Shown: positions 14,373 through 15,572 of the stretch, in pieces
How positions within the stretch are numbered: the first letter of the stretch is position 1
How the letters are laid out: each line of letters opens with the position of its first letter
Source of the DNA: Shewanella eurypsychrophilus
Lineage (GTDB): Bacteria; Pseudomonadota; Gammaproteobacteria; Enterobacterales; Shewanellaceae
NCBI RefSeq assembly: GCF_007004545.3
Contig: NZ_CP045503.2
Location: 1,272,501 to 1,336,500 of the forward strand
DNA: 64,000 nt
Reading direction: 5' to 3'
Program-made: the position numbers and the translations under genes
The notes under the pieces: model-generated
Told to the model about the DNA's origin: nothing
The model's database searches: none
What the model saw: the letters and a program-made list of their open reading frames with translations, nothing else

Positions 14373-15572
14373 TCAAGAAGTAGGCTTAGTAGGTTCCTCA
14401 TTTACAATTTCAACGGGTACTGTTATTTGAAAACAGGTGCCTTCACCTAAGGCGCTTTTACACTGTATCTGCCCCTTCATATTGGTGACAGTGTTGTACA
14501 CAATCGTCATTCCAAGCCCTGTGCCTTTTCCGCCTCTTCGGGTAGTAAAAAAGGGTTCAAATATTCTTGCCAGCTGTTCTTGGTTCATACCAATGCCGTT
14601 ATCTTTATACTTTATGACTAAAGCATGATCTTCGTTTAGGCTAAAGTTGATCTCTATCAGTCCATCAGATAATTCAGGAAAACTGTGTTCAACCGAATTA
14701 GTGAAAAGGTGGGTCATGATGACGATAAACTGGTTGGGGTTACTGTTGATTTTTAGGGCGGGAGGGCAAGATATGTCTACCTGATCTGCTGCTAATTCAA
14801 ATTTATACATCAGTGAGTTAATCAAGTCTGTAGTAAATTCATAGAGATTAAAGGGCTTATCATCAATCTCATGTTGGTTTGCAGATACCTGTTTAAATAT
14901 TTTAACTAGGTTCGCGCTCCTTAACAAATTTCGGTTAACTAATTCAAGGGCTTGATCAATTTCATCAATTAACTCTTCTGTTTCTATAGAGTAAGATTGT
15001 TTCTTCGCCTTTTTAATGACGCTTTCTATATGGGTTGCAGCGGTTATGCTGGTCCCTATAGGTGTATTGAGTTCATGTGCCATTCCCGCAATAAGGTGTC
15101 CAAGTGATGCCAGCTTTTGGGATTCTATAATATCTTGCTGAGCAGAGTTTAATTTCTCTAAAGAAAGCTTTAGGGCACTGTTTTTTCTCTCTAACATGCT
15201 TGGACTAGGTAGGGCTAGAAAGAATGGTAGCAAGAACCAAATAACAATACCGGTAGCGAGTGAAGTCACTGCAGTCACTGCTTTTGAAATGGATGAAACT
15301 CCATAGATAGGCTCCCAAATAACAATGGCATTAATGAGGTGAGAGAGCCCACAGGCAAGAAAGATCACTGAGCCAGAAAGAAGAAAAAACCAAGGGTAAG
15401 GGAGATCTTTTCGTCGCTTTACGAAGACGATGACAGCTAAAGTAATTGAGAAGTAAGCGAGGGCCGTGACCACATCTGATATCACTGAGGTCCATAAGAT
15501 ATCCGGGCGCCATAGATAACACATGCCATGTGGCATGAATGCTTCATTGTTAAAGAAAGAATCTGTGTCCAT
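14373..15572 (-). CDS. Orphan sensor histidine kinase with ethylene-receptor-like membrane domain
   Basis: A 399-residue membrane kinase. Residues 1-120 contain three membrane segments resembling the ethylene-binding domain of plant ETR1 and cyanobacterial homologues: MPHGMCYLWRPDILW, then SDVVTALAYFSI (D33, Y40) and FLACGLSHLIN (C74, H78). C74-x3-H78 corresponds to the copper-binding C65/H69 of ETR1, and D33-x6-Y40 to D25/Y32; there is a one-residue difference in spacing between Y40 and C74. A helical linker (128-150) leads to the HisKA H-box GHLIAGMAHELNTPIG (phospho-acceptor H166). The HATPase domain follows, with HLFTNSVEH (N box), DNGIGM (G1), FEPFFTTRR and GKGTGLGM (G2). No response regulator or GAF domain is adjacent. 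It lies 127 bp downstream of plsY. Kinase assignment is firm; ethylene or copper binding is inference. Confidence 0.88.
   Translation of the reverse strand: MDTDSFFNNEAFMPHGMCYLWRPDILWTSVISDVVTALAYFSITLAVIVFVKRRKDLPYPWFFLLSGSVIFLACGLSHLINAIVIWEPIYGVSSISKAVTAVTSLATGIVIWFLLPFFLALPSPSMLERKNSALKLSLEKLNSAQQDIIESQKLASLGHLIAGMAHELNTPIGTSITAATHIESVIKKAKKQSYSIETEELIDEIDQALELVNRNLLRSANLVKIFKQVSANQHEIDDKPFNLYEFTTDLINSLMYKFELAADQVDISCPPALKINSNPNQFIVIMTHLFTNSVEHSFPELSDGLIEINFSLNEDHALVIKYKDNGIGMNQEQLARIFEPFFTTRRGGKGTGLGMTIVYNTVTNMKGQIQCKSALGEGTCFQITVPVEIVNEEPTKPTS

Follow-up and report, generated by a model that had tools for sequence, protein, structure and literature searches.

An ETR1-type histidine kinase from a clade with a one-residue insertion in helix 2 beside the putative copper ligand and without P36

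The gene at positions 14373..15572 of the window (the whole 64,000-nucleotide stretch of DNA that was analyzed) lies on the minus strand (15572 -> 14373) and encodes a 399-amino-acid histidine kinase with an ETR1_N sensor domain. The family itself is already known. What is new, as judged from the aligned domains, is a one-residue insertion in helix 2, beside the putative copper ligand, which marks a small clade that also lacks the proline corresponding to ETR1 P36. We estimate at about even odds (a probability of roughly 0.5) that the protein is a Cu(I)-binding kinase of the ETR1 type with a remodeled ligand pocket, a ligand other than ethylene and a response regulator encoded at an unlinked site.

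Domain architecture and gene neighborhood

When the open reading frame was compared with Pfam, three domains were observed: ETR1_N, HisKA and HATPase_c. The ETR1_N match (PF25487, gathering cut-off 27) covers residues 25-121 with 96.2 bits and an E-value of 1.4e-27, which is far above chance, and by this profile score we consider membership of the ETR1_N family firm. The whole sensor domain, from the PHGxC motif to the end of helix 3, was taken as residues 14-121 (15210..15533, minus strand). HisKA (residues 157-217; 14922..15104, minus strand) scored 21.8 bits and thus fell below its cut-off of 26.9, yet the H-box AHELNTP with the phospho-acceptor H166 is plain. HATPase_c (residues 280-388; 14409..14735, minus strand; 80.2 bits) contains N292, D324, an F-box at 338 and a G2 box at 350. 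Together with H166 and GTGLGM, the H, N, G1, F and G2 boxes are all there.

A sequence-only reading of this DNA had described HisKA and HATPase as following the sensor directly, with neither GAF nor receiver and with no adjacent regulator. Pfam agrees, as no GAF, PAS or receiver domain was found in the protein, and no response regulator was recognized among the neighboring ORFs of at least 80 amino acids between 10448 and 19604. The ORFs recognized there are presumably dnaG, tsaD, plsY, folB, folK and uppP. In a scan for promoters and terminators, two promoter-like sites were seen where 3.7 would be expected, and both are within the gene. The window's own genome contains one ETR1_N match; when it was searched with the whole protein, 40 further matches were obtained, mostly to the kinase half, and one of the nearest paralogues (39 % identity) is a receiver-HisKA-HATPase protein.

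The PHGMC sequence (residues 14-18; window 15519-15533) precedes helix 1 and is not part of the region matched by Pfam ETR1_N, and PHGxC is kept at this place in nearly all bacterial domains examined. Its cysteine, C18, aligns with C4 of ETR1, a residue involved in dimer disulphides. The motif could have a role in the dimer or in copper hand-over.

Copper-site residues and the helix 2 register

AtETR1 was used for residue numbering. When the window protein was numbered in this way, D33, Y40, I43, C74, H78 and K97 were equivalent to D25, Y32, I35, C65, H69 and K91, so the four motif residues listed in the sequence-only reading (D33, Y40, C74 and H78) are present where it had placed them. C74-G-L-S-H78 (15339..15353, minus strand) provides the equivalents of the ETR1 copper ligands C65 and H69. 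The equivalents of D25, Y32, C65, H69 and K91 are retained in all five members of the clade.

Seven ETR1 residues are considered here as needed for ethylene binding (D25, Y32, I35, P36, I62, C65 and H69). Five of the seven are kept in the window protein, so the full set taken as the mark of a functional ethylene receptor is not there. P36 is replaced by T44 (codon 15441..15443, minus strand), and the counterpart of I62 is I70 or F71, according to the site chosen for the insertion. The helix 2 register FIxxCG is likewise absent, the window protein reading IFLACG. Two ethylene-insensitive plant mutants, etr1-4 (I62F) and Never-ripe (P36L), are changed at these same positions; our literature searches found no paper naming either. 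D25 and C65 are stated in print as needed for ethylene binding by ETR1, and P36, I35 and I62 are among the residues named as essential in PMC6586836.

For the comparison, 63 non-identical domains from fetched loci were aligned, five of the window's group and 58 others. Domains with a profile score below 25 bits or an E-value above 1e-5, exact duplicates and one match without a locus (G976) were left out, and 8 of 18 plasmid matches were taken into the sample. With AtETR1 added, the 58 other domains make 59 other rows. The distance from Y40 to C74 is 34 in the window protein, as it is in all five group members, whereas the corresponding distance (Y32 to C65) is 33 in 53/59 other rows, including AzoEtr1 and AtETR1. 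The extra residue had been mentioned in the sequence-only reading as a point of spacing, which understated it, since it marks a clade. The residues before the cysteine differ in the same way: position C-4 is F in 59/59 other rows and I in 5/5 clade members, C-3 is I in 51/59 and F in 5/5, and C-7 is F in 56/59 and G in 5/5. A helical-wheel script only restates this register shift.

Starting from the conserved D, P and W ahead of helix 2, the group aligns without gaps up to I70. Thus, the extra residue lies within residues 70-73 (IFLA; 15354..15365, minus strand), directly before C74, and the hmmalign alignment against a non-clade profile agrees, with a low posterior for the exact place within these four residues. 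Three other domains (L051, L097 and L098) also have a spacing of 34, but they retain F[IV]xxC, and one further domain with a spacing of 38 retains FILSC. As F-x-x-x-C is kept in these four, their extra residues are absorbed in the loop. Among the sampled domains, then, a shifted helix register at the putative copper ligand is seen in the clade only.

At the P36 position the five clade members have T, T, T, A and A. Outside the clade P is found in 47/58 domains and S, A, G or L in the other 11/58. Loss of P36 alone is thus not special to the clade, because these 11 domains are without it too; what sets the clade apart, by the alignment, is the joint occurrence of this loss and the helix 2 insertion. 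The same 11 domains speak against our reading of a remodeled pocket, in that loss of P36 need not abolish function. We also considered position 28 (I28 in ETR1, T in the clade) as a sign of lost binding. However, it was rejected because AzoEtr1 also has T there.

The domains L097 and L098 (genomes G1035 and G1021) have R at the place of the copper His, F for Y32 and A for P36. By their sequences they form another divergent branch, which should not be expected to bind copper in the same way.

Comparison with characterized receptors

The locus L101, on a plasmid of A. brasilense Sp7, encodes a 525-amino-acid protein with D35, C75, H79 and K98, and a receiver-like ORF starts at its stop. Because the length, these four residues and the receiver-like ORF fit the published description, we identify it by sequence with AzoEtr1 of Azospirillum, which binds ethylene according to PMC11819568. 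AzoEtr1 resembles the window protein in being a proteobacterial histidine kinase with ETR1_N and the D, C, H and K equivalents, with a domain identity of about 40-41 %. It differs in having P at the P36 position, F-I-L-A-C, a spacing of 33 and an adjoining response regulator, as well as a PAS domain as described in the same paper. SynEtr1 (Slr1212 of Synechocystis), which was compared by description only, is likewise a bacterial receptor of the ETR1_N type that signals through a kinase (PMC11819568), but it is said to be bifunctional, responding to ethylene and to light. AtETR1 and the other plant receptors share the ETR1_N fold and D25, Y32, I35, C65, H69 and K91 with the window protein; unlike them, it has neither GAF nor receiver, P36 is replaced and helix 2 is one residue longer.

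These likenesses are the case for an ordinary bacterial ethylene receptor, in which the insertion and T44 do no harm and ethylene, bound through Cu(I), regulates surface or metabolic behavior as in Synechocystis and Azospirillum. All of the D, Y, C, H and K equivalents are retained, the ETR1_N score is far above the cut-off, an ethylene-binding relative is about two-fifths identical in this domain, and the T at the I28 position, being present in that relative too, is compatible with binding. On the other hand, all 5/5 clade members have lost P36 and have a shifted helix 2 register beside C74, and P36 and I62 are reported as essential in ETR1 (PMC6586836). We therefore regard an ordinary receptor as a serious but minority explanation, and ethylene binding by the window domain as doubtful on the sequence evidence.

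A more specific proposal is that this clade of gammaproteobacterial receptors has given up ethylene, the insertion (perhaps as a pi-type bulge) and the loss of P36 and of the FI pair having turned the site towards Cu(I) itself or towards CO, acetylene or another olefin. This stronger statement is offered tentatively and is about as probable as the ordinary receptor. The sequence-only reading had left ethylene, another small olefin and Cu(I) side by side. Given the insertion and the loss of P36, ethylene is less likely than its list of motifs suggests, and the part that we favor is Cu(I) or another ligand.

That reading had also called a compact version without an adjacent regulator unusual in a marine gammaproteobacterium, an argument that is weakened by other compact receptors. 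Kinases of 381-396 amino acids with the sensor directly before the kinase, as in the window protein, are found on a Novosphingobium plasmid (L105), on a Blastomonas plasmid (L108) and at L077. They differ from the window protein in having a response regulator alongside and F at C-4. L077 is the same locus as L037, and its regulator was identified by ORF reading, whereas those of L105 and L108 are annotated. The other four clade members (G192, G426, G003 and G071) share with the window the helix 2 insertion, the loss of P36 and the kept copper ligands; they differ in output.

Clade, distribution and gene history

When a tree was drawn from 61 rows and 140 columns, with the P36 column in and the insertion column out, the five insertion carriers (the window, G192, G426, G003 and G071) formed one side of a branch with a support of 97/93, in an analysis whose bootstrap had not settled. 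The tree was drawn without three weak rows (L030, L045 and L099). The members come from three bacterial families (f1, f16 and f7).

Across these families the kinase has diverged more than the sensor domain. Identity to the window protein is 71.1 % in the sensor domain and 40.4 % in the kinase for G192, 59.8 % and 33.1 % for G426, and 47.0 % and 31.7 % for G071. The outputs vary as well: G192 is a compact kinase, G426 a kinase with a receiver and G071 a PAS kinase, and G003 stops after the sensor. In the clade comparison dS was saturated, so dN/dS gave no value for selection.

ETR1_N was detected in 5/117 genomes of the genus (4 above the cut-off), 20/394 of the order (18 above), 16/369 of the class (12 above) and 29/398 of the phylum (28 above), in draws that share genomes with one another and count the window's genome too. 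In these bacteria the domain is thus not common, but it is no exception either. The sequence-only reading, which called ethylene-type receptors established in plants and cyanobacteria, is too strong if it confines such domains to these groups, and PMC7700396 and PMC11819568 also report that many proteobacteria carry ethylene-binding-type domains. Two weak genus matches (L012 and L013) were rejected as real members as they are without the motifs. The three that are left agree with a survey of the genus using a profile of the window's group, as had been proposed from the sequence, which gave 3/129 genomes. No further clade member was found in a second draw of the order (383 genomes) or among neighbors of G192 (9) and of G426 (6 and 40). 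When genome contigs were scanned with the whole protein, 18 relatives were obtained, and the sensor-domain profile matched 0/18 of them.

The window gene is flanked by tsaD and plsY. The gap between these two genes is 1448 bases here and, measured between aligned ends, 25-298 bases in 12 genomes of the same genus with full tsaD matches; of the 14 other genomes considered, one with a partial match and one without tsaD in the stretch were excluded. The GC content is 35-36 % in the kinase part and 46-49 % in the flanking genes. Taken together, the contrast between sensor and kinase identity, the varied outputs, the tsaD-plsY gap and the low kinase GC suggest acquisition by transfer with swapping of sensor and output.

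The same gap and GC contrast, the patchy occurrence within the genus, the truncated G003 copy and the lack of a partner gene alongside would also fit a degenerate, recently acquired gene that is drifting and has no present role. We consider this unlikely, as the window ORF is intact with complete kinase motifs and its sensor domain still shares 71 % identity with that of G192, which belongs to a different family. The small size of the clade, with only five members found and one of them (G003) ending after the sensor, nevertheless counts against the preferred reading of a working Cu(I)-binding kinase.

In G003 (L070:9043-9432) the window-type sensor ends after helix 3 and is followed by unrelated sequence, and VgrG-like and transposase-like ORFs were seen nearby by eye. 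The copy is either a relic or a stand-alone sensor. At the G192 locus, also by eye, an RND pump adjoins the gene and NorR-like and flavohaemoprotein Hmp-like ORFs lie about 7 kb away (L071:1-2704); these are not shared with the window.

Predicted structure

An AlphaFold2 model of the window domain, built with 20 viral-contig homologues, has a mean pLDDT of 88.6 and a pTM of 0.73. As proposed in the sequence-only reading, three helices are predicted: transmembrane helix 1 at residues 23-53 (15414..15506, minus strand; with D33, Y40, I43 and T44), helix 2 at residues 60-86 (15315..15395, minus strand) and helix 3 at residues 90-119 (15216..15305, minus strand; with K97). In the comparator L123, which is without the insertion (pLDDT 90.4), the helices are at 28-58, 66-90 and 94-124. 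The two models agree in the lengths of helix 1 and of the part that follows the Cys. Helix 2 has 27 residues in the window model and 25 in L123, with 14 and 12 residues, respectively, before the Cys, and the loop has 6 residues as against 7. Since helix 2 is longer and the loop shorter, the models place the extra residue in helix 2 and not in the loop, and helix 2 is predicted to be unbroken. In the published ETR1 model (PMC6586836) the site is buried in the dimer only.

When the predicted fold was compared with known and modeled structures, 33 PDB and 149 BFVD matches were obtained at E-values up to 10 and none at 0.001. A sequence search of solved structures matched only the kinase part of ETR1 (4pl9), and no sensor-domain structure. 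A three-helix membrane sensor from a different family, with no more than a chance likeness to ETR1, can draw on the fold comparison, which with 0/33 solved structures below 0.001 supports no family, but it is very improbable, because ETR1_N is the only sensor family found by Pfam, 69 bits above its cut-off, where a profile search might have placed the domain in an unrelated one, the motifs align one for one with 58 domains, and the only solved structure matched by sequence belongs to ETR1.

Proposed mechanism and significance

In the mechanism that we propose, the protein would be an inner-membrane sensor histidine kinase with its three transmembrane helices forming the sensor domain, which probably acts as a dimer, by analogy with ETR1. 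The probable Cu(I) ligands are C74 and H78, both on helix 2. For ETR1 it has been proposed that D25 positions the copper-ligand His and that K91 passes the signal or affects output; by the same analogy D33 of helix 1 may position H78 and K97 of helix 3 may pass the signal, so that both would link the site to the output. Because the kinase core is intact, ligand binding should alter autophosphorylation of H166 and then phosphotransfer to a regulator encoded elsewhere. The pocket appears to have been rebuilt in the clade, with a residue inserted before the copper ligand and with the FI pair at C-4/C-3 and P36 lost, and because of this rebuilding ethylene would not be bound as it is in ETR1, SynEtr1 and AzoEtr1. 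The effector may be Cu(I) itself or a small molecule other than ethylene that Cu(I) binds.

Most of what is known about ligand choice at the Cu(I) site comes from mutants of a single plant protein. The clade is a natural comparison, as it has the same metal site in a different pocket (helix register and P36). If ethylene is bound by the window domain, neither P36 nor the helix 2 register is needed for binding; if not, the sensed ligand becomes a direct question. Should the clade have given up ethylene, this would be natural ligand switching in the only known biological metal site that senses olefins. Literature searches on the ethylene-binding domain, proteobacteria, Shewanella, copper, ETR1_N and phage returned no title or abstract describing the clade and no study of ethylene signaling in these bacteria. 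The mentions of Shewanella in PMC4686702 concern CRP and not ethylene.

ETR1_N-like domains on viral contigs

We also observed 23 distinct ETR1_N-like domains on IMG/VR viral contigs (above 30 bits with our own profile), among them L118:1436-1885, L133:3375-3794, L143:5326-5985 and L142:4145-4471. A typed consensus of the domain gave no match in 50,697 annotated phage records, and misassignment of the contigs is a possible explanation for the 23. Position C-4 is F in 20/20 of the viral-contig domains counted, a count that is biased since part of them were found through the FIxxCG pattern. Several of the ORFs are 139-219 amino acids long, too short for a kinase, and keep the C and H. Neighbors in L142 match phage tail families and a neighbor in L118 matches a phage replication initiation family. 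In L143 the domain is preceded by a long repetitive ORF and followed by a small membrane ORF.
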